Part shown: positions 35,104 to 45,631 of the stretch, one piece after another
Position numbering within the stretch: the stretch's first letter is position 1
How the letters are laid out: each line of letters starts with the position of its first letter
NCBI GenBank assembly: GCA_017640605.1
Contig: JAEPQH010000009.1
Location: forward strand, 1-64,000
Length of the DNA stretch: 64,000 bases
Direction: 5' to 3'
DNA from: Balneolaceae bacterium
GTDB lineage: Bacteria; Bacteroidota; Rhodothermia; Balneolales; Balneolaceae
The notes under the pieces: model-generated
The model's database searches: none
What the model saw: only the letters and a program-made list of their open reading frames with translations
Told to the model about the DNA's origin: nothing
Program-made: the position numbers and the translations under genes

Positions 35104-36258
35104 ATGTTTCCACAAGAAGTGGTTGGTGCCTTAAAAAAGCATAAGACACCTTTTTACTATTACGACACCGAGCTATTACGAACCACCTTACAGCAAATTA
35201 AAACGCAAGGCATCGATCGGGGATATCGTGTTCACTTTGCATTAAAAGCGAATCATCAACCTAAAATTCTCGAAACTATTCGTGAATATGGATTGGATGC
35301 CGATTGCGTAAGCGGTGGTGAGATTAAACGCGCACTTGAATGTGGATTTACGCCTGATCAGATTGCTTTTGCCGGCGTTGGAAAATCTGACGATGAAATT
35401 GAACTCGCACTGAATTCCAATATTTTCTGCTTTAATGTTGAGTCGCCGCTTGAGCTGGAAGTAATCAACGAGTTTGCGATTAAGCATAATAAAACTGCTA
35501 ATGTTGCGCTTCGCTTAAACCCCAATGTAAATGCAGAAACGCATCATTATATCACCACGGGATTAAATGAAAATAAGTTTGGTATTCATGAAGATGACCT
35601 TGATTCTGTACTAGAGAAAATCCCTTCTCTTTCAAATATTAAGTTGATTGGTATTCACTTTCACATTGGTTCACAGATCGTAAAATTTGAACCTTTTGAG
35701 CAGTTGTGTACGCGTGCCAATGATCTTAATTCTTACATCGAATCGAAAGGGCACACCTTAACTTCCATTAATGTGGGCGGTGGATTTGGCATAAATTACG
35801 ATGCCCCGAATCAATCTTCTGTGCCTGATTTTAAGCGATATTTCGAGATTTTCTCGAGTGCAATCAAACTAAAAGAGCATCAAACCTTACATTTTGAACT
35901 AGGTCGTTCGGTAGTTGGGCAATGTGGGAGCTTAATCACCAAAGTGTTGTACACCAAAACCGGCAGAGTAAAAAACTTCGCTGTGGTTGACGCTGGCATG
36001 ACCGAATTACTTCGCCCGGCACTCTATCAAGCGGTGCACAATATTGATGCATTAACATCCATTAAAGGACAAAAAAAGTATGATGTAGTTGGCCCAATTT
36101 GCGAAAGCTCTGATACCTTCAGAAAAGATCTGGATTTGCCGGAACTTTCGAGAGGTGATCTACTAGCAATACGCAGCTGCGGTGCATACGGCGAGGTGAT
36201 GCAAAACCAATATAATCTGCGCCCTCATGTTCAATCGCTGTATTCTGATGAAATATAA
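35104..36258 (+). CDS. lysA: Diaminopimelate decarboxylase
   Basis: The last step of lysine synthesis: decarboxylation of meso-diaminopimelate by a PLP enzyme of the alanine-racemase fold. PLP lysine is Lys48 in HFALKAN, followed by the HFHIGSQ and GGGFGINYD phosphate-binding segments, GRSVVG and the substrate cysteine in GPICESSDTF. The 384-residue length is slightly short but complete. Aspartate kinase, the first enzyme of the pathway, is at 45632, about 9 kb away and not adjacent. A long leader may hold control elements that I could not identify. Confidence 0.93.
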   Translation: MFPQEVVGALKKHKTPFYYYDTELLRTTLQQIKTQGIDRGYRVHFALKANHQPKILETIREYGLDADCVSGGEIKRALECGFTPDQIAFAGVGKSDDEIELALNSNIFCFNVESPLELEVINEFAIKHNKTANVALRLNPNVNAETHHYITTGLNENKFGIHEDDLDSVLEKIPSLSNIKLIGIHFHIGSQIVKFEPFEQLCTRANDLNSYIESKGHTLTSINVGGGFGINYDAPNQSSVPDFKRYFEIFSSAIKLKEHQTLHFELGRSVVGQCGSLITKVLYTKTGRVKNFAVVDAGMTELLRPALYQAVHNIDALTSIKGQKKYDVVGPICESSDTFRKDLDLPELSRGDLLAIRSCGAYGEVMQNQYNLRPHVQSLYSDEI

Positions 36259-36261
36259 AAA

Positions 36262-36287
36262 ACAGACTTTCTCTCCAGAAAGTCTGT
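36262..36287. terminator. Bidirectional terminator between lysA and the T9SS protein
   Basis: ACAGACTTTCT pairs with AGAAAGTCTGT around a CTCC loop, a perfect 11-bp stem. On the minus strand it is followed by TTTTTTATATTT, ideal for the gene at 36323; on the plus strand by CTATTTGGTTTG, weaker. Confidence 0.8.
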
Positions 36288-36322
36288 CTATTTGGTTTGT
36301 TGGTTCTATGTATTGGGGGTAA

Positions 36323-39184
36323 TTATTTAATCAACATCATTTTTCTAAGTTGTTGCTTGCCCTCAAAGTTGATACTGTAGAAATAGATTCCACTTGAAAG
36401 ATTTGAGCCATCGAATCTGAATTGATGTGTACCGGCAGTAAGATTCCCATCTACAAGGGTGGCTACTTTTCTCCCAAGCATATCAAAAACTTCTGCTTTA
36501 ACACTCCCTGTGCGAGGAATTGAAAATGAAATATTTGTGCTTGGGTTAAATGGGTTTGGATAATTTTGGTTAAGAATAACATTCCGCGGAATGTCTTTAT
36601 CATCTTCGCTAGAGTTGATTAATTTATCTTCCATTTTAAACACTAACGCCAAATTCCCTTCAGGTTCAAATCCAACTTTAGCTGCTACTAATGGGATTTG
36701 ATATCGATCATTTTCACTAAAAATTTTTACGGTATCACCTACTGATCTGACGTGCTGCACATAAACACTGTCGAAATCGGGAAAATCTTTTGTTTCTAAC
36801 CGTAAAATAGCGGTATCAACCCGAGTGCTTCGAAGACCAAAAGGAACTACCGTTCTAACATTGCTGGTATCAAAGAGCTGAGCTTTACTAAAATATTCTG
36901 CCTTTGCATTGATGCCATTTCCCAATGCAAACACATTGTGAAAATGTGGAGTAGGATTGAGTGGTTTAGGAATAATCTTACCATCCTGAGCTAAATGAAA
37001 GCGATCTCCTACTGCTTCTTTCGATTCCAAATGTAAAGTAAGGGTCGGTTTCGGCTGGATATTTAAAACCCCTTCTAAGGTAATCGGGCTTACTTGATCA
37101 GAAAAAATCCCTTTGTATTTAAATTCGATATTTGCAGTTTGATCGGTCGCGAACACGGCAAAAGCCTGATCGGGTTTAATCACAACTTCTTGTGCACCGG
37201 AATAAGTAGGAAACTCCCAAGCTCCAAATCCGCTATCAGCCATCGGGTTCCATATGGCAATATCACGAGATACATTCATTCTTTGAGCAAACTCTGATGA
37301 CCATTTCCAACTTTGTCCGAATGGATTACCTACGATCGAAACTCCAAATCTGGATAACGTATCTGATTTATTTCCAACAAAAAGAGGAATCGAAACATCA
37401 TCCGTAGTTGTGTAAAATGCATTATTAAAGCCTTCGATAGTTTCTTTTTCTAAACTATTCAGGTTTTCGGTTCTGGGCCATCCGCCTTGAACCCCTGTTG
37501 TTGCCGTGTCGATATCTTCCGGAATAAGGATAAAAAAGGAATCGCCTCGACGTAAGGTATCCGACAAACTAGTTGGTGGCTCATACTCTTCAGTAAGTGG
37601 ATTATATACCAACAGATTCTCCGGAATTTCATTTTCTGTGGGCAAACACTCTGGGCAAGAATTGCCGTACAATTCTAAATCGCTCAGATAATCTTCAAAG
37701 GTAACATCATTGATCACCGGTGCCATCAACTCCCAACGATCTTTACCCTCTAACCCATCAAATTCGAATCTTGATTTAAAAGTATTGATAAGTAAAGTAT
37801 CTGATAAGCCTGTGTATTCACCCGCTCGATCGGCTAACTCGTAGGCAATTTTAATAAAATTAACGTTGGCTCTGACATTTGATGGATAACTAAGTTTAAG
37901 TCGGTTTTGTGATAAATCCTCCACACCGATCTCATATTCAGTACCGGGAGTAATTGTTGTTTCATAACTACCACTGCCATCAGAGTCATGTCGTAGCACG
38001 CTGGATGCTAAATTATTTTCGGAACTGAGTATGTTGGTAATTTTAATTCCTCCAATCCCCTCATTTACATTCCAATCGAAATAATCCTCAGGGTCGTTAA
38101 CAAAGGTTTGAGGCAGTAGATAAGCACTTTGACCAATGTTTGAAGCATTTATTATGGTCTTTGGCCCTTCCAATGAATTATAAATCGGTGCGTGATTTAC
38201 ATATTCCAATTGATGAATTGGCCTTCTTAATTCTGACGCGCGTAAATAAATATTACCGGCTTCGTCTACGGCAACTTCAGATAGTTGCCCGAAATTACCT
38301 CGACTTCCATTTTGTGGTATTTCAAAGACATCAATAAGATTTAATTCCGGGGTTAAAAAAACAAGGAATTGCTCAGGGGAAGAACTCCCGTTTTCTGAGA
38401 TAGTAACAGTAATACGCCCATTATCTTCAATAACAATCCGTTTTGTATCGAAGTTTGTTGATGAAGCTCCCGGTATTGAATTCACATCGTAACTTCCCAC
38501 ATTCGATCCATTCATATCGAACGCATAAACTTCATTTAAACTGAGGATGTACATCATCTCCTCATGCACTGCAATATCATTTAAAGATCCACTAAACTGA
38601 GAAAGCTGAAATTCTGCAACAACTACCGCTTGGTTTAATGAGGTATCCCATTCATATTCAACCACTCGATTATTGAGATCATCGAATAAGAAGAATCCAT
38701 TCTCATTAGCATGTAATCTTCGGGCTTTTATTGCCCCGTTTGATTGTGTTTGGATAGTCTGTTTTAGTGATCCATCATTCAATGAATAGATACGTAGTTC
38801 AGAATTCGCAGCCGAACTACTATGTAACAATAATCCGACCAGTGAATCTGTCACCGCCACATCTGCATCATCGAAATTCCCTAAACCGGAAGTGTTGAAT
38901 AAAACACCCAAACTATTTCCGGTTACAGCATCTATCTTTTTCATTCTGGATGAGTCTTTCACAAACTCATACAAAATTTGATTCTTCACAAAAAACGGAT
39001 ATACCATCGTGGTTTGCGCCTGATACCCTTCATTATAGATATTCAGCAAATCTCCCTTCCCAATTCCAGTATCAACATAACCTTGATTTGGTGCATCAGG
39101 AAACACTTTTTGGGCTTTTACTTCCAGTGTATTACTCATCAAAAGTGTGAGTACAGCAGCGAAAACTAAAACATACTTTTTCAT
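36323..39184 (-). CDS. Large secreted protein with T9SS type A sorting domain (copy 1)
   Basis: A signal peptide (KKYVLVFAAVLTLLMS) precedes a long region that starts with propeller-like blocks (about residues 40-340). The middle shares GVQGGWPRT and GNPFGQSWKW with the neighbour gene. The last ~80 residues form a C-terminal sorting domain (QNYPNPFNPSTNISFSIP ... GIYFYSI ... KMMLIK), which directs export by the type IX secretion system. Function unknown; the 922-residue gene upstream is a diverged paralogue, so the two probably work as a pair on the cell surface. It follows that gene by 15 bp and ends at a terminator. Confidence 0.85.
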   Translation of the reverse strand: MKKYVLVFAAVLTLLMSNTLEVKAQKVFPDAPNQGYVDTGIGKGDLLNIYNEGYQAQTTMVYPFFVKNQILYEFVKDSSRMKKIDAVTGNSLGVLFNTSGLGNFDDADVAVTDSLVGLLLHSSSAANSELRIYSLNDGSLKQTIQTQSNGAIKARRLHANENGFFLFDDLNNRVVEYEWDTSLNQAVVVAEFQLSQFSGSLNDIAVHEEMMYILSLNEVYAFDMNGSNVGSYDVNSIPGASSTNFDTKRIVIEDNGRITVTISENGSSSPEQFLVFLTPELNLIDVFEIPQNGSRGNFGQLSEVAVDEAGNIYLRASELRRPIHQLEYVNHAPIYNSLEGPKTIINASNIGQSAYLLPQTFVNDPEDYFDWNVNEGIGGIKITNILSSENNLASSVLRHDSDGSGSYETTITPGTEYEIGVEDLSQNRLKLSYPSNVRANVNFIKIAYELADRAGEYTGLSDTLLINTFKSRFEFDGLEGKDRWELMAPVINDVTFEDYLSDLELYGNSCPECLPTENEIPENLLVYNPLTEEYEPPTSLSDTLRRGDSFFILIPEDIDTATTGVQGGWPRTENLNSLEKETIEGFNNAFYTTTDDVSIPLFVGNKSDTLSRFGVSIVGNPFGQSWKWSSEFAQRMNVSRDIAIWNPMADSGFGAWEFPTYSGAQEVVIKPDQAFAVFATDQTANIEFKYKGIFSDQVSPITLEGVLNIQPKPTLTLHLESKEAVGDRFHLAQDGKIIPKPLNPTPHFHNVFALGNGINAKAEYFSKAQLFDTSNVRTVVPFGLRSTRVDTAILRLETKDFPDFDSVYVQHVRSVGDTVKIFSENDRYQIPLVAAKVGFEPEGNLALVFKMEDKLINSSEDDKDIPRNVILNQNYPNPFNPSTNISFSIPRTGSVKAEVFDMLGRKVATLVDGNLTAGTHQFRFDGSNLSSGIYFYSINFEGKQQLRKMMLIK

Positions 39185-39199
39185 GGTTATTCCTCTTAC

Positions 39200-41968
39200 T
39201 TATTTGATGAGCGTTATTGATTGTGTACTTACCTGATTGTTCGCAGTAATACGCACGAAATAGACTCCTGAGTTTTGCTTCGATAAATCAAGGCGTAGGT
39301 TGTGCGTACCTGCACGCTTAAACTCGAGATCATTCAGTTCCATTATTCGTTGACCCAAGGTGTTAAACACTTCTACTCGAACATTTGAAGCGTTTGGTAA
39401 CTGGTATTGAATATTTGTAGCTGGATTGAATGGGTTCGGATAGGCACCTATTTCAAATTTGACGGGGAGTTCATTTTCATTCCCATTGGATACCGTTTGT
39501 TGATGATTTAGTAACAGGAATAGTTTTCCTTCTTCTTTCCACTCTTCCCCGTTTTTTACTAACGATATACTTGGCGAAGTTTTTCGTAAGTCAAATTCTT
39601 GTACACTTCCATCACTAAGCTCATACCTTAATAATATTGAGCCATTAAACTCGGATAATACATCAGTAGTGACATTAAACGTAGCGATACTATTCACCGT
39701 TGAACGAACTCCAAGTTCAATGGTGATCGGTTCGTCAACTAATTTACCGGTTATCGCCAGTTTCTTATCATCTGAATCAATTGCGAATACTTCATGATAA
39801 TAATCCGACAAACTTGTAAGCTTTTGTGCTCTTATATCTGCTGAATGAATTCCTAAGACATCCGAAAACCCATTATCAGTAATATTCACCGTTAAAAATG
39901 AGTGATTTCCTACAAGTTTATTAACATTTCGTTCAGCTAAGGTAATGCCGTTAGTATGGTATTCAGCCATTGCATTGCTAGCATTAGCCTGAATCCAGTA
40001 CCCCTGTCCCGGTGCAATTGTACTCGCAGGCGAGTTTGTACTCGATATTGGCGTGTACACATATCGACCATTCCCGTTATTGTAATTTGCCTCCCAAACG
40101 GTTAACACCTGAGTTGTGGAATCAACCTCAAGATATGGATCTCTTGCGCGATAGGCGGTGGTATAGGGATTTCCAATCAGGTTAAAGCCCTCGAATTCCG
40201 GTTCACTTAAAGCACTTTCGAAGATTAATGGATACGTAAAATTTTCGAAGCCCGTAACTCCATCTCTTTCAATGGGTGGAGTTAATGTTTTAGGCCAGCC
40301 ACCCTGAACTCCGGGCGTATTCAAATCATCATCTTCGAATAAATAGATTGCAAAACCCTGGCCAATCTCTATTTCGGTATTCAAGTCTAGCACCGGTTGC
40401 CATTCTTCGTTTGCAGTGTTGTAAGTGAATACATTTGGTGATGCGAGAGGTAAATCGCTACTGATGGCACCCTGAGTCCATACAGGTTCAAGAAATTCTT
40501 CAAAGGTGAGTCCGATCCTGTTTGGAGCTAATAATCTCCAGCCATCAACGCCCGCAGTCCCCTCAATAATAACTCTTTGACCGAGTAAGGTTGCGATTAC
40601 AAATCCATTTAGGTCTGGGTTAAAACCAAAACCATCTCCCCACCGATAGGCAAAAATAGTTTGCTGAGCTCCTGCTAACGGATTGGTTGAATTTGCGCGA
40701 AATGCTAACCTATTTTCGATAATATCATCTATCGAAATATCAAGAGAATCCGTAACCTCATCAAAAAGGATCTCATTTTGCGAGAATAGCCCATCATTAT
40801 CTGCATCATAATACAATTCAAAATGGCTGTTTGTATATGTTTCGGGATAAATGCGTGCTACAACAACGGTATCTTCAATGTTCCAGTCTTGGAAGGCAAA
40901 CAGATCTTTTTCTATCGGATAGAAATTACCCTCATCTTTTGCAATAACCCTTCCGTATTGAGTCGTATTGTTATTGAATGGAGGCGAGTTAAAATCATCC
41001 AGCATCCTAATCGAACGATCAGCGGCATGGGTTACGTAAATATTCCCATCATAGTCTACATCAAGATCAGTTATGGTAGAGAAATCTCCTCTGTTCCCAC
41101 CAACCGGTAGTTCTAAATCTCCTAAATATTGGAAACCTCCACCAAAGAAAACCAACCTTTTGGAAGCTACAGTAGTTGATTTTGCAGCTCCGCTGGGCTG
41201 ATCATTTACGGCTACTACTATTCGGCCGTTGTCTTCGACAATCACTGATTCTATACTTAATTCTCGTCCAGGCGCAATGGTTTGTTCATCAAAGTCGAAG
41301 CTAATTCCTTCTACACCTTCCGGGCTAAAACGTTTTAATGCATTTTCAGCTTTATCCCACACATAATACACTTCGAAATCTCTTCTTGCCCCAACTGCCC
41401 CTACATTGTTTGCTGTAATAAAGGCCGACATATCAACCTCTTTGGAAGCAAAGAATCCTGAATTATTCATTCCTGTTGTGTCGGGGTCAAAACGCAGAAG
41501 CCGGTTATTAAGGCTGTCGTATGCAATAAAAGATTGCGTTGAAACCCTGTTTAAATGCCGAAAAGCCGTTCCTTTCCCTAACTGAGAGTTCTCTAAACCA
41601 TGATTGAGAAATTGCTTCTCTACATAATCATAATGGTAAATAAAGTTCAAACTGTTGTAGCTAAATAAAAAAAGAATGGAGTTATTAATGGAGATTAGAT
41701 CCTCAAATTTTAACCCTGTTGCATTATTAGCTATAATCAGAGAGTCGATAGGAGCTTGAACATTTGTGGTATCCCAAATAAAAACTCGGCTACGCTCATC
41801 GTTAGACTCAAGCAATAAGCTTCCGAAGCTGGCTATTTGTGCTGAATTCGGCACAGATAAAGCCGGAGAACCTGAATTGAATGTTTTTTTGAGAGGTGCG
41901 TTCTGGGCAAGCGCGATTGAGCTCCACCCTAAACTAAGAACAAATAGAAATAGTAGTTTTTTCTGCAT
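39200..41968 (-). CDS. Large secreted protein with T9SS type A sorting domain (copy 2)
   Basis: The 922-residue protein has a signal peptide (MQKKLLFLFVLSLGWSSIALA), repeated propeller-like blocks and the C-terminal sorting domain (YPNPFNPATNIQYQLP ... GVYFVRIT ... ITLIK). It shares with the next gene the segments (G)DGWRLLAP/(K)DRWELMAP, TFEEFLEP/TFEDYLSD and GVQGGWPKT, so they are tandem paralogues. It is preceded by the direct-repeat operator at 42024-42040 and by a two-component system transcribed towards it, making it a likely regulated target. Confidence 0.85.
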   Translation of the reverse strand: MQKKLLFLFVLSLGWSSIALAQNAPLKKTFNSGSPALSVPNSAQIASFGSLLLESNDERSRVFIWDTTNVQAPIDSLIIANNATGLKFEDLISINNSILFLFSYNSLNFIYHYDYVEKQFLNHGLENSQLGKGTAFRHLNRVSTQSFIAYDSLNNRLLRFDPDTTGMNNSGFFASKEVDMSAFITANNVGAVGARRDFEVYYVWDKAENALKRFSPEGVEGISFDFDEQTIAPGRELSIESVIVEDNGRIVVAVNDQPSGAAKSTTVASKRLVFFGGGFQYLGDLELPVGGNRGDFSTITDLDVDYDGNIYVTHAADRSIRMLDDFNSPPFNNNTTQYGRVIAKDEGNFYPIEKDLFAFQDWNIEDTVVVARIYPETYTNSHFELYYDADNDGLFSQNEILFDEVTDSLDISIDDIIENRLAFRANSTNPLAGAQQTIFAYRWGDGFGFNPDLNGFVIATLLGQRVIIEGTAGVDGWRLLAPNRIGLTFEEFLEPVWTQGAISSDLPLASPNVFTYNTANEEWQPVLDLNTEIEIGQGFAIYLFEDDDLNTPGVQGGWPKTLTPPIERDGVTGFENFTYPLIFESALSEPEFEGFNLIGNPYTTAYRARDPYLEVDSTTQVLTVWEANYNNGNGRYVYTPISSTNSPASTIAPGQGYWIQANASNAMAEYHTNGITLAERNVNKLVGNHSFLTVNITDNGFSDVLGIHSADIRAQKLTSLSDYYHEVFAIDSDDKKLAITGKLVDEPITIELGVRSTVNSIATFNVTTDVLSEFNGSILLRYELSDGSVQEFDLRKTSPSISLVKNGEEWKEEGKLFLLLNHQQTVSNGNENELPVKFEIGAYPNPFNPATNIQYQLPNASNVRVEVFNTLGQRIMELNDLEFKRAGTHNLRLDLSKQNSGVYFVRITANNQVSTQSITLIK

Positions 41969-41993
41969 AGCAACCTTGTTATTAAAAGTTGCT

Positions 41994-42040
41994 GAAACCT
42001 ACTTAGGCATTGTTTATCAAACAGGTGACAGATGGGTGAC
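41994..42040 (-). promoter_or_regulatory. Promoter with GTCACC-N5-GTCACC operator upstream of the T9SS protein
   Basis: On the minus strand GTCACC is repeated at 42040-42035 and 42029-42024 with starts 11 bp apart. A -7 element TAGGTTTC (42001-41994) follows 22 nt later, then the ATG at 41968. The same layout occurs before the gene at 45350, which makes chance unlikely. Confidence 0.6.
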
Positions 42041-42102
42041 GATCATTAAAAAAACCCCAACAATCGGATACATTGCATTAATTTTTACCTGCAATAATTC
42101 GA

Positions 42103-42795
42103 TTAAACTGTAGTAAGTGCCTCTTCAATACTCTTGGTTTTGGGTAAGTTCATTCGCTTTTTGAGCCGAACTTTTGAGCGCTTCACACTTTCCGGTTCAA
42201 TCGAAAGGTGACTTGCAATTTCTTTATTACTAAATCCAAACTTAATAAGTAATAACAAACGCTTGTCTAATAATGTGAGATGAGGATAGGTGTGGGAGAT
42301 ACTTTCGAAAATGGGGTCTTTTATATTCGAGATTTGTTTCGCCTGCTCTTCGTTCAACACTCCGGTATTTATCACGTTCGAAAGTGAAAGCCATTCCCGC
42401 ATGCGCATGTAATCGCGTTCCAACTTTGCTTTTAACCGCTCGAGCAACTGTATGAAATCATCTTCGTCAACTGGCTTTAAGATGTAATCAAATACTGAAA
42501 CGCGAATTGCTCGTAGCATGTGCTCATCATGAGCAGTAGTGATAACAGTGATTGGTTGATCATCCCCAAAATGACTAATAATGTCCAGGCTGTTTTTATC
42601 GCGCAGCATGATATCGAGAAAGAGTACATCAATATTCGTTAGAAGTTCTCGATCGCTTTCCGAATTCGCGTCTAAATCGTATTGTTTTCCAACCATCTCC
42701 ATTTCAAGACCATCTATGGAGATATTTTTCAGATAATACTCAACCGATTCTAACGCTTGAGGATCATCATCTACTATGGCATATTTTACTTTCAA
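42103..42795 (-). CDS. Response regulator, REC plus LuxR-like HTH
   Basis: The 230-residue protein has a receiver domain with acidic triad D9-D11, phosphoacceptor Asp61 (VLFLDIML) and Lys107 (DYILKPVD). A C-terminal helix-turn-helix follows (FGFSNKEIASHLSIEPESVKRSKVRLKKRM), the form common in Bacteroidota TPR-HTH regulators. The receiver resembles the LytTR-partner type, but the output domain is not LytTR. It lies 68 bp after the kinase gene and 134 bp before the T9SS gene, and likely binds the GTCACC repeats. Confidence 0.88.
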   Translation of the reverse strand: MKVKYAIVDDDPQALESVEYYLKNISIDGLEMEMVGKQYDLDANSESDRELLTNIDVLFLDIMLRDKNSLDIISHFGDDQPITVITTAHDEHMLRAIRVSVFDYILKPVDEDDFIQLLERLKAKLERDYMRMREWLSLSNVINTGVLNEEQAKQISNIKDPIFESISHTYPHLTLLDKRLLLLIKFGFSNKEIASHLSIEPESVKRSKVRLKKRMNLPKTKSIEEALTTV

Positions 42796-42863
42796 AAAAC
42801 TTGATTTCTAATCTTTTCAATTGACCTTTTCCAGCGCGAAAGGTATACAAAAAAATCAAACTC

Positions 42864-44978
42864 TCAACTTACCACTGGAATACAAAACTCTACTTCAACC
42901 CCGCGATTTTGACTTGAACTTTCAGGGCTTTTGATGATAAATGAATAGGGTTTGCCCGTAATTTTTTTAAGTAACTCGAAGCGCTCGCTCGTAATTTTTA
43001 TCGCCAATGATTTTTTGCTGGTCAAGGCGTCTCCTTTTTTAAATCCTGCTCCATTATCACGAACCAGAATTACCAAGTGAGCCTCTTTCTTAACAATCTC
43101 AATGTCAATCTTTCCGCGTTCATCTTGTTTAGGTAAAATGCCATGTTCCACCGCATTTTCAATAAATGGTTGTGCAAGCATAGGCGGAATTAGGATAGAA
43201 TCAGTATGAATATTTTCATCTATCTCAAAGTAATAGTCAAAGGTATTGCCGGTTCTAATTTGCTGAAGTCGCAAAAACTCCTTCAGTAATTCTAATTCTT
43301 GATTTAGAGTAATAAAAGGTTCTCGACTGTAATTAAGCACCATTCGAGTCACTTTTGCGAACTTTGCCACGAAGTTTGAGGTGTCTTTAACCTCCCTGTT
43401 TTGCAATACAAAACTCTGTATAGATACCAATGCATTAAATAAAAAATGAGGGTTCATCTGAACAGATAATAATCGCTGATGCATATCATGTAATTCTCTC
43501 TGCTGTTTACTTACCCGTCGTTGATATAGCATATATCCACCGGTAACAATGAGAATCAAAAGCAATCCAACAGAAATAATTTGGGTATTTCTTGTTTTAA
43601 TGAGTGCGGCTTGTAACCGGCTTTCATTCTGCAAAAAATCAATCTCTGTTTGCTTCTTCTCTGTTTCATATTTCGTTTGAAGGTCTTCAATACGTTGTAA
43701 ATTTTCGGCCTTTAACAAACTATCCCGAAACTGAATATGCGATTTATAGGCTTCTAACGCTGACTCAGTATTACCTAATCGTTGTTCAATTTCAGATAAA
43801 TTACCATAGCTTTGTGAAATGGTACCATATCTACCTAATTGTTCACCTAAACGAATTCCGATTAAAGCAAAGTTTTTCGCTCGATTTAGATCATTCAACT
43901 GTAATGCAGTGTACGAGATGTTGTTTGCGGCACGCGCTTGAAGCACTGCATTCCCGAGATCAACCGCAACTTGATAAGATTCTACATATTTGTCATTGGC
44001 TAATTCAAGCTGTCCAAGTTGTGAATGAATGTTACCAATATTATTCAATCGAGAACTGTAAATAGCATAATCTTTTTGTTTGAAGGCGAATTCGAGTGAG
44101 CGCTGGTAATTAATTAATGCACTATCCAACTCGTTTTGCATCGAATGCATATTAGCCAATGTTGCGTAGGCAAAACCTTTGAGGTAATCATTCTGTGTTT
44201 GATTTGCTGCATTCACAAATAATCGTGCAAATTCTTTACTACGCTCCAGGTATAATTCTGTCTCAATTTCAGCTCCAGTCTCTTCACCATAACTCACAAG
44301 AGCGCTGTAAGATGCTGCCAAAACTTGATAGCTTCGCATTTCTAAGTCAACGTCGCTAATGCTAATAGCATAGTCCCTGTTATCTAAGGCCAACTCAATG
44401 GCGTCGTCAAACATTTGTCGACGATAATACACCGACGCTCGATTATGCCGAAATTGCCCTACCAGCGTCTGTAGTAAACTATCCGAACTAAAATTAATGT
44501 CAGAGTTGGCAACTGATTCTGCTTTCTCTAAATAATAAAGTGTAGAATCTGTAACGCTATAATTGAAGTAGTAATCCGATAAATATTTATAACCTCTAGC
44601 TATGAAAAGACTGTTTTCTGCTCGCTTTGCTGATCGTAATAGTTGGTTGGATACTGTTTTTAAAGCTTCCATATCTAATCTTGAAAGTCCCTTCCCCAGA
44701 AGGAACAGTGCATCCAATTGAAGAGTAGTATTGCCTTCAGATTCGGCCAGCTGATAATACAATTCTGAGTAAAATCGTACGGAATCGTATTCACTAACTT
44801 GATAAAAATCCATGATGAAAGAGTTCACTTCTTCAGGATTGTTTAGCAAATCCGTATTCAATTCATTCAGCGAGGATCTAACGTCTACGGATTGCGCATT
44901 CACTGAACTCAGCAGTAAAACACTTAAAATTACTTCTTTAAGAAATGTGATTCGCATCTGATATAATTGAGGTATCAC
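42864..44978 (-). CDS. TPR-containing sensor histidine kinase (LytS-like catalytic core)
   Basis: A 704-residue membrane kinase. An N-terminal signal/anchor (EVILSVLLLSSVNAQS) precedes several TPR-like repeats (about 35-440) in the periplasm, one membrane helix (467-485, IISVGLLLILIVTGGYMLY), a short coiled region and a His_kinase core with His511 in MNPHFLFNAL, the N box QPFIENAVEHG and the G box VRDNGAGF. It probably phosphorylates the REC-HTH protein encoded 68 bp downstream. The signal sensed is unknown. Confidence 0.9.
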   Translation of the reverse strand: MIPQLYQMRITFLKEVILSVLLLSSVNAQSVDVRSSLNELNTDLLNNPEEVNSFIMDFYQVSEYDSVRFYSELYYQLAESEGNTTLQLDALFLLGKGLSRLDMEALKTVSNQLLRSAKRAENSLFIARGYKYLSDYYFNYSVTDSTLYYLEKAESVANSDINFSSDSLLQTLVGQFRHNRASVYYRRQMFDDAIELALDNRDYAISISDVDLEMRSYQVLAASYSALVSYGEETGAEIETELYLERSKEFARLFVNAANQTQNDYLKGFAYATLANMHSMQNELDSALINYQRSLEFAFKQKDYAIYSSRLNNIGNIHSQLGQLELANDKYVESYQVAVDLGNAVLQARAANNISYTALQLNDLNRAKNFALIGIRLGEQLGRYGTISQSYGNLSEIEQRLGNTESALEAYKSHIQFRDSLLKAENLQRIEDLQTKYETEKKQTEIDFLQNESRLQAALIKTRNTQIISVGLLLILIVTGGYMLYQRRVSKQQRELHDMHQRLLSVQMNPHFLFNALVSIQSFVLQNREVKDTSNFVAKFAKVTRMVLNYSREPFITLNQELELLKEFLRLQQIRTGNTFDYYFEIDENIHTDSILIPPMLAQPFIENAVEHGILPKQDERGKIDIEIVKKEAHLVILVRDNGAGFKKGDALTSKKSLAIKITSERFELLKKITGKPYSFIIKSPESSSQNRGVEVEFCIPVVS

Positions 44979-45062
44979 AACAATACTGGATTAGCCTCAT
45001 TTCGGCAATAGTCATATCTGTATTTACTAATTCTCATTTCTCATATTCATGGCATAATATCG

Positions 45063-45350
45063 TTATACAGTGGGAAAAAAATAGCTTATCAGCTTTTGGA
45101 TAGTCTCAGGTTTCTTCATCCTTTGTATCATTTTTGATCTAACTGAACATATCTGACAAACAATTACTTTTTTTTCATTCAGCTGAACAGGTTCTAACTC
45201 TGCAATTTGTTTGATTAGTGGATGTTTTTTTCCTTCCCACGCTCCACAACTCATGCAACGATTTTTTTGAGTGATCTCCTTAATGATCGATAAGGTTGAT
45301 TCATTATCATCGCTTTTGGTGATGTGTGAAGCACCATCATTTTTGCTCAT
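45063..45350 (-). CDS. Small zinc-ribbon-like protein
   Basis: I do not recognise the family of this 95-residue protein. CxxC pairs at C32/C35 (RCMSCGAWEGKKHP) and C65/C68 (VCQICSV) are separated by 29 residues, the same geometry as the protein at 5592-5822, and suggest a zinc ribbon. The start ATG is 55 bp downstream of a GTCACC-N5-GTCACC operator, placing it in the probable regulon of the neighbouring two-component system. The last residues are hydrophobic (LISYFFPTV). Confidence 0.6.
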   Translation of the reverse strand: MSKNDGASHITKSDDNESTLSIIKEITQKNRCMSCGAWEGKKHPLIKQIAELEPVQLNEKKVIVCQICSVRSKMIQRMKKPETIQKLISYFFPTV

Positions 45351-45372
45351 TGCTTTCTTTTTTAGTGAACTT

Positions 45373-45421
45373 GAAAAGTATACGAGCTAATAAATGGTCT
45401 ATCAGGTGACAATCCGGTGAC
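45373..45421 (-). promoter_or_regulatory. Promoter with GTCACC-N5-GTCACC operator upstream of the zinc-ribbon gene
   Basis: On the minus strand GTCACC occurs at 45421-45416 and 45410-45405, starts 11 bp apart. A -7 element TACTTTTC (45380-45373) lies 24 nt downstream and the ATG at 45350 is 55 bp from the near repeat. No convincing -33 element is seen, as expected for an activator-dependent promoter. Confidence 0.6.
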
Positions 45422-45631
45422 AAGCAGTACAACCTATGTCAAAAAGAATCTGTTAGCACTACTATTCATTCTTGATAAAAAAGTTTTAACAACCAAGGCT
45501 TCATAAGTTGATTAAGCACGATTCATAAACACACCTTATCGAGAATATTTTTTGGAACATTATCTTTAAAATGCGCTGAAATCGCCTGAGAGACTCTGTA
45601 TTTTTGAGCTCACTTTATATCTACTCGTTTA

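Follow-up and report, generated by a model that had tools for sequence, protein, structure and literature searches.

Two copies of one direct repeat stand on either side of a sensor kinase gene and a response regulator gene in the genome of a Balneolaceae bacterium, and they raise the question of which protein reads them and which genes they control. A first-pass annotation of the window, that is, of the whole 64,000-nucleotide stretch of contig JAEPQH010000009.1 analyzed here, had placed GTCACC-N5-GTCACC on the minus strand at 42040-42024 and 45421-45405, and both 17-mers were present there without a mismatch. Putative operator 1, GTCACCCATCTGTCACC (42024 to 42040, minus strand), lies 62 bp past the stop codon of the regulator gene and 5' of a pair of T9SS genes, and putative operator 2, GTCACCGGATTGTCACC (45405 to 45421, minus strand), lies 5' of the genes for a CxxC protein, the kinase, and the regulator. 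Written in full, the repeat is TGTCACC-N4-TGTCACC, in which the two GTCACC hexamers are separated by a 5-nt spacer and lie one helical turn (11 bp) apart.

The positions of the two sites were also as annotated. The near edge of the repeat was 56 bp (operator 1) and 55 bp (operator 2) from the ATG, and sequences resembling the Bacteroidota-type -7 element followed 22 nt downstream of operator 1 (TAGGTTTC, 41994 to 42001, minus strand) and 24 nt downstream of operator 2 (TACTTTTC, 45373 to 45380, minus strand). These are possible promoter elements, recognized post hoc and by consensus resemblance only, and are the weaker evidence. From the end of the proximal half-site to the -7-like element the distance was 22 to 24 nt, so that the half-site occupies the place of a good -33 element. 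Within the window, no further GTCACC-N5-GTCACC was found at zero or one mismatch, in agreement with the annotation, and the scattering through the genome that it had offered as counterevidence was not observed: the 3,738,441-bp genome contained two exact copies, both in the same 9.4-kb block, with none in the reversed control. Just two single-mismatch copies were found elsewhere in the genome, at C27:116216 and C29:60026, and these lie within open frames of 153 and 1005 codons, respectively, not in promoters.

The 9.4-kb block (36259 to 45631), between lysA and lysC, contains both operators and five genes, all on the minus strand. The first gene of the regulatory operon (45063 to 45350, minus strand) encodes a small CxxC...CxxC protein of 95 aa without a Pfam or NCBIfam match; weak homologs of it were found in nine other genomes of the family, several of them adjoining T9SS cargo. 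The second gene (42864 to 44957, minus strand) encodes a 697-aa sensor kinase with TPR repeats (TPR_12), one membrane helix, and His_kinase and HATPase domains (PF06580, 7e-19), which also gave a partial FimS match (5e-14). The third gene (42103 to 42795, minus strand) encodes the proposed reader of both operators, a 230-aa response regulator in which the NarL/FixJ features, an REC domain (PF00072, 37.5 bits against a cutoff of 30.2) and a C-terminal GerE/LuxR-type HTH (PF00196, 24.6 bits against a cutoff of 23.5), both pass the Pfam cutoffs. On reading the sequences, we located an H box and an N box in the kinase and, in the receiver, the characteristic DD, D, and K residues; the single membrane helix and the signal peptides were also called by eye. 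Since these three genes share a strand and are separated by short gaps (105 and 68 bp), we infer that they form one operon.

The proposed target of operator 1 is the gene for T9SS cargo protein 1 (39200 to 41968, minus strand; 922 aa), which has a type A sorting tail (TIGR04183, 2e-13). The gene for T9SS cargo protein 2 (36323 to 39184, minus strand; 953 aa, 27% identical to cargo 1) follows after 15 bp in the same operon. A strong inverted repeat at 36257-36292, between the convergent lysA gene and the second T9SS gene, is probably a two-way terminator. By gene order, each of the two operons, including the one that encodes the regulator, is thus preceded by its own putative operator. The first-pass annotation had named a T9SS gene and a zinc-ribbon gene as the targets; the former remains a proposed target, and the latter assignment is too narrow, since the second site precedes an operon that also includes the kinase and the regulator. 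Its reference to surface export likewise applies to the exported T9SS proteins and not to a secretion machine: the T9SS genes encode sorting-domain proteins, which are cargo.

These features are best accounted for by a self-contained two-component circuit in which the regulator binds both repeats and activates its own operon and the T9SS pair, a reading that we consider probable. In such a circuit, the periplasmic TPR domain of the kinase would sense a signal, after which the kinase would phosphorylate the REC-HTH regulator. The regulator would then bind TGTCACC-N4-TGTCACC as a head-to-tail dimer, just upstream of the core promoter. Located before the CxxC-kinase-regulator operon, site 2 would make the switch autoregulatory, with positive feedback on all three genes, and site 1 would bring the two neighboring T9SS surface proteins under the same control. 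Binding, phosphotransfer, and activation in place of repression are all predictions from the sequence. Class II activation is proposed for both operons because the proximal half-site replaces the -33 element and because ComA of Bacillus subtilis offers a precedent.

ComA, a GerE-type response regulator, binds TTGCGG-N5-TTGCGG, a direct repeat of the hexamer-N5-hexamer type that adjoins the -35 region, and this class II site is needed for efficient transcription (PMC4797271). The window shares with it a direct repeat of the same form, GTCACC-N5-GTCACC, adjoining the inferred core promoter; ComA differs in phylum, half-site (TTGCGG), and sensor, and it uses inverted repeats too. A second known system, FimS/FimR of Porphyromonas gingivalis, consists of a TPR kinase and a response regulator that directly activates a surface-fimbria gene (PMC1974823). 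Both it and the window system pair a TPR sensor kinase with a response regulator, and FimS/FimR acts on surface-structure genes through direct promoter binding (PMC1974823, PMC11053733); the window kinase has the TPR sensor region and the His_kinase domain. However, this kinase scored 51.5 bits against the 600-bit FimS cutoff (NF053520), the proposed targets are T9SS cargo and not the fimbrial genes fimA and mfa1, and PMC1974823 mentions no direct-repeat operator. The best reading is that the window system is FimS/FimR-like and that FimS/FimR is its nearest functional parallel. In the PF06580 His_kinase domain of its kinase and its LytR-like REC domain, the window system also resembles LytS/LytTR systems, but its regulator has no LytTR match and carries a GerE HTH as the output domain instead. 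No description of the window system was found in the literature, which was covered in part.

The main rival, which appears unlikely, is that the regulator acts on both sites as a repressor and that the operons are off until phosphorylation frees the DNA. Protein bound so near the putative core promoters could also obstruct polymerase. However, a half-site that ends 22 to 24 nt before the -7-like element and replaces a good -33 element fits class II activation, ComA activates with the same topology, and FimR activates mfa1.

Which protein reads the repeats is a separate question, and relatives of the regulator's HTH bear on it. The closest of these are one-piece membrane regulators of TPR-TM-HTH architecture from within the same bacterial family. 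Searches with the CxxC protein and the HTH led to clusters L199, L200, and L203 of genus g6, in which TPR-TM-HTH regulators stand beside CxxC proteins and T9SS cargo. Upstream of the g6 regulator genes are direct repeats that keep the 11-bp period but differ in sequence from the window sites: one paralog has TGTAGGG-N4-TGTAGGG and the other has TTGTAGA-N4-TTGTAGA, both kept in three species, and the g6 CxxC genes carry TTGTAGA-N4-TTGTAGA in reverse orientation. HTH genes were then gathered family-wide by profile, most of them fetched blind to any DNA motif. Exact 6-mer tandems with a lag of 11 were present upstream of 11 of 16 inner-clade genes and 0 of 24 outer-clade genes, against 24 of 190 control genes, a control figure inflated by some genes whose promoter is shared with a divergent HTH gene. 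Lag 11 was the only enriched period, the other lags from 8 to 24 being unremarkable. TGTAG-N6-TGTAG, within one mismatch and in the gene's own orientation, preceded 13 of the 16 inner-clade genes, several of which are mutual orthologs and hence not 16 independent cases. Six of the 16 (L200, L203, and L282) constituted the discovery set; among the other ten, obtained by protein search, seven had the repeat, with L265, L268, and L270 also having been touched by the DNA search. Upstream of three inner-clade TPR-HTH genes (L266, L267, and L272), no recognizable 11-bp direct repeat was found. Loci with TGTAG-N6-TGTAG before an HTH gene were L200, L203, L282, L264, L265, L268, L270, L271, L047, and L269. 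Genome-wide, the motif overall was hardly above the reversed control. TGTAG-N6-TGTAG is likely the autoregulatory operator of the inner TPR-TM-HTH clade, to judge from its recurrent position.

The source genome itself has one TPR-TM-HTH regulator (C17), which is preceded by TGTAGATAGATTGTAG, and a T9SS gene with TGTAG-N6-TGTAG at its start (C27:323120; L297, about 5621). In two g6 species, the motif stands before large secreted/T9SS cargo operons (L298, about 6213; L299, about 526). In a same-genus genome, a TPR-HTH gene is divergent from a cargo 1 homolog, and at this locus (L047) no clear matching repeat was found on the cargo side. Small CxxC...CxxC proteins directly beside T9SS cargo were observed at L191, L192, L193, L196, L202, L199, L200, and L203; none had a Pfam or NCBIfam family above the cutoff, and they are possibly a T9SS-linked accessory protein. 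Near other CxxC-protein genes, no shared repeats were found outside the TPR-HTH clusters.

The relatives' 11-bp-period repeats thus support the core of the annotated claim, that the matched sites are operators read by the adjacent REC-HTH protein and that they control surface protein genes. The same repeats bear on the improbable alternative that another DNA-binding protein, either a global regulator or the CxxC protein, reads the sites and that the two-component system is a bystander. The CxxC protein, being without an assigned family, could contact DNA. However, two genomic sites are fewer than expected of a global regulator, and repeats of the same period precede the HTH relatives' own genes. 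The recognition helices point in the same direction. At positions which we take, from NarL, to contact DNA, inner-clade regulators have SV[DETVNK]Q[SAG][RK][YR], paired with TGTAG; outer-clade helices are mostly SVKTARY, without such a repeat; and the window regulator has SVKRSKV, paired with TGTCACC. Half-site and helix covary, which is what reading of the repeat by the HTH would produce.

The TPR-TM-HTH relatives partly match the SusR and BT3442 models, which likens the window system to the SusR-like proteins of Bacteroides. For these, direct-repeat operators have been predicted whose half-site centers lie 67 or 77 bp apart (PMC3878776), in contrast to the 11-bp spacing found here. Moreover, SusR is one protein, whereas in the window the TPR repeats, membrane helix, and HTH are split over kinase and regulator, and no sugar genes are present at the block.

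The distribution of the block was compared among relatives. The gap between lysA and lysC is 15 bp in the sister species G001, versus 9,373 bp here, and the interval is also gene-free in G007 and G014. In G005 and G009, of two other genera, an unrelated, oxidoreductase-like gene of about 405 aa lies between lysA and lysC (L053, 16531-17754; L056, 11182-12396), and the interval may be a place of repeated gene gain. No full-length ortholog of the regulator was found in 92 genomes of the family (E ≤1e-12), 245 of the class (1e-14), or 394 of a phylum sample (1e-16), nor in a scan of genome contigs; its matches in other genomes span the receiver alone or the HTH alone. The simplest reading of these comparisons is that the block was gained in the source lineage, which does not imply arrival in one step. 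The regulon looks purely local, since the genome has just two sites and both belong to a block missing from the searched relatives.

Another explanation, very improbable, is that the repeats delimit a mobile 3.4-kb cassette, CxxC-kinase-regulator, and are not operators. They are directly oriented and do bracket these three genes exactly. However, both copies are internally tandem, with a period of one helical turn, and occupy promoter positions. In addition, the foreign block is bounded by lysA and lysC, not by the repeats, and it encodes no recombinase. No direct repeat was seen inside either of the two edge regions of the block.

The statistical expectation was evaluated with a look-elsewhere test in which any 6-mer and any period between 6 and 30 were allowed across the 150 bp upstream of each of 50 called window genes. 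The sole tandem common to two upstream regions was GTCACC at period 11. In first-order Markov simulations, shared tandems averaged 0.0225 per run, and none was GC-rich. Chance matching, the least credible explanation of all, can appeal to the single exact matches that occur in relatives at about 0.3 per genome (the background across 240 genomes of the class, with the reversed control alike), but not readily to two matches that lie at -55/-56 within a single 9.4-kb block, with a geometry that agrees with the HTH relatives' repeats, when any shared tandem arose in just 2.25% of 400 simulations.

The kinase gives some indication of how the proposed circuit may have been assembled. Between its TPR region and those of the TPR-TM-HTH regulators, similarity reached E values as low as 1e-17. 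The system therefore resembles a TPR-TM-HTH regulator divided in two, with the sensor on the kinase and the HTH on the receiver. The nearest kinase relatives checked (among L094-L106) adjoin regulators that by eye are REC-LytTR-like, which makes a GerE output domain unusual for a kinase of this type. No GTCACC tandem was found at the kinase-relative loci, which were ruled out as a guide to the operator because of their REC-LytTR-like regulators. A tentative history, for which the case is nearly but not quite balanced, is that a LytR-like receiver acquired its HTH from a TPR-TM-HTH regulator, that the 11-bp direct-repeat geometry was kept while the half-site changed from TGTAG to TGTCACC, and that the resulting two-site circuit, insulated from the host's TGTAG-type regulator, arrived as a block together with the surface proteins that are its cargo. 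The placement of the window regulator in the HTH tree is unsure, owing to its long branch.

At this locus, a Bacteroidota two-component system is matched with a specific candidate operator. The HTH relatives extend the result to a clade of TPR-TM-HTH regulators, for which TGTAG-N6-TGTAG is the predicted operator; SusR-like operators have hitherto been computational predictions of a different shape. The pairs of helix and half-site are natural variants with which to study how the GerE recognition helix determines half-site choice in the direct-repeat mode. For the organism, the proposed arrangement would mean that T9SS surface proteins may move together with a switch of their own, free of cross talk with the host.
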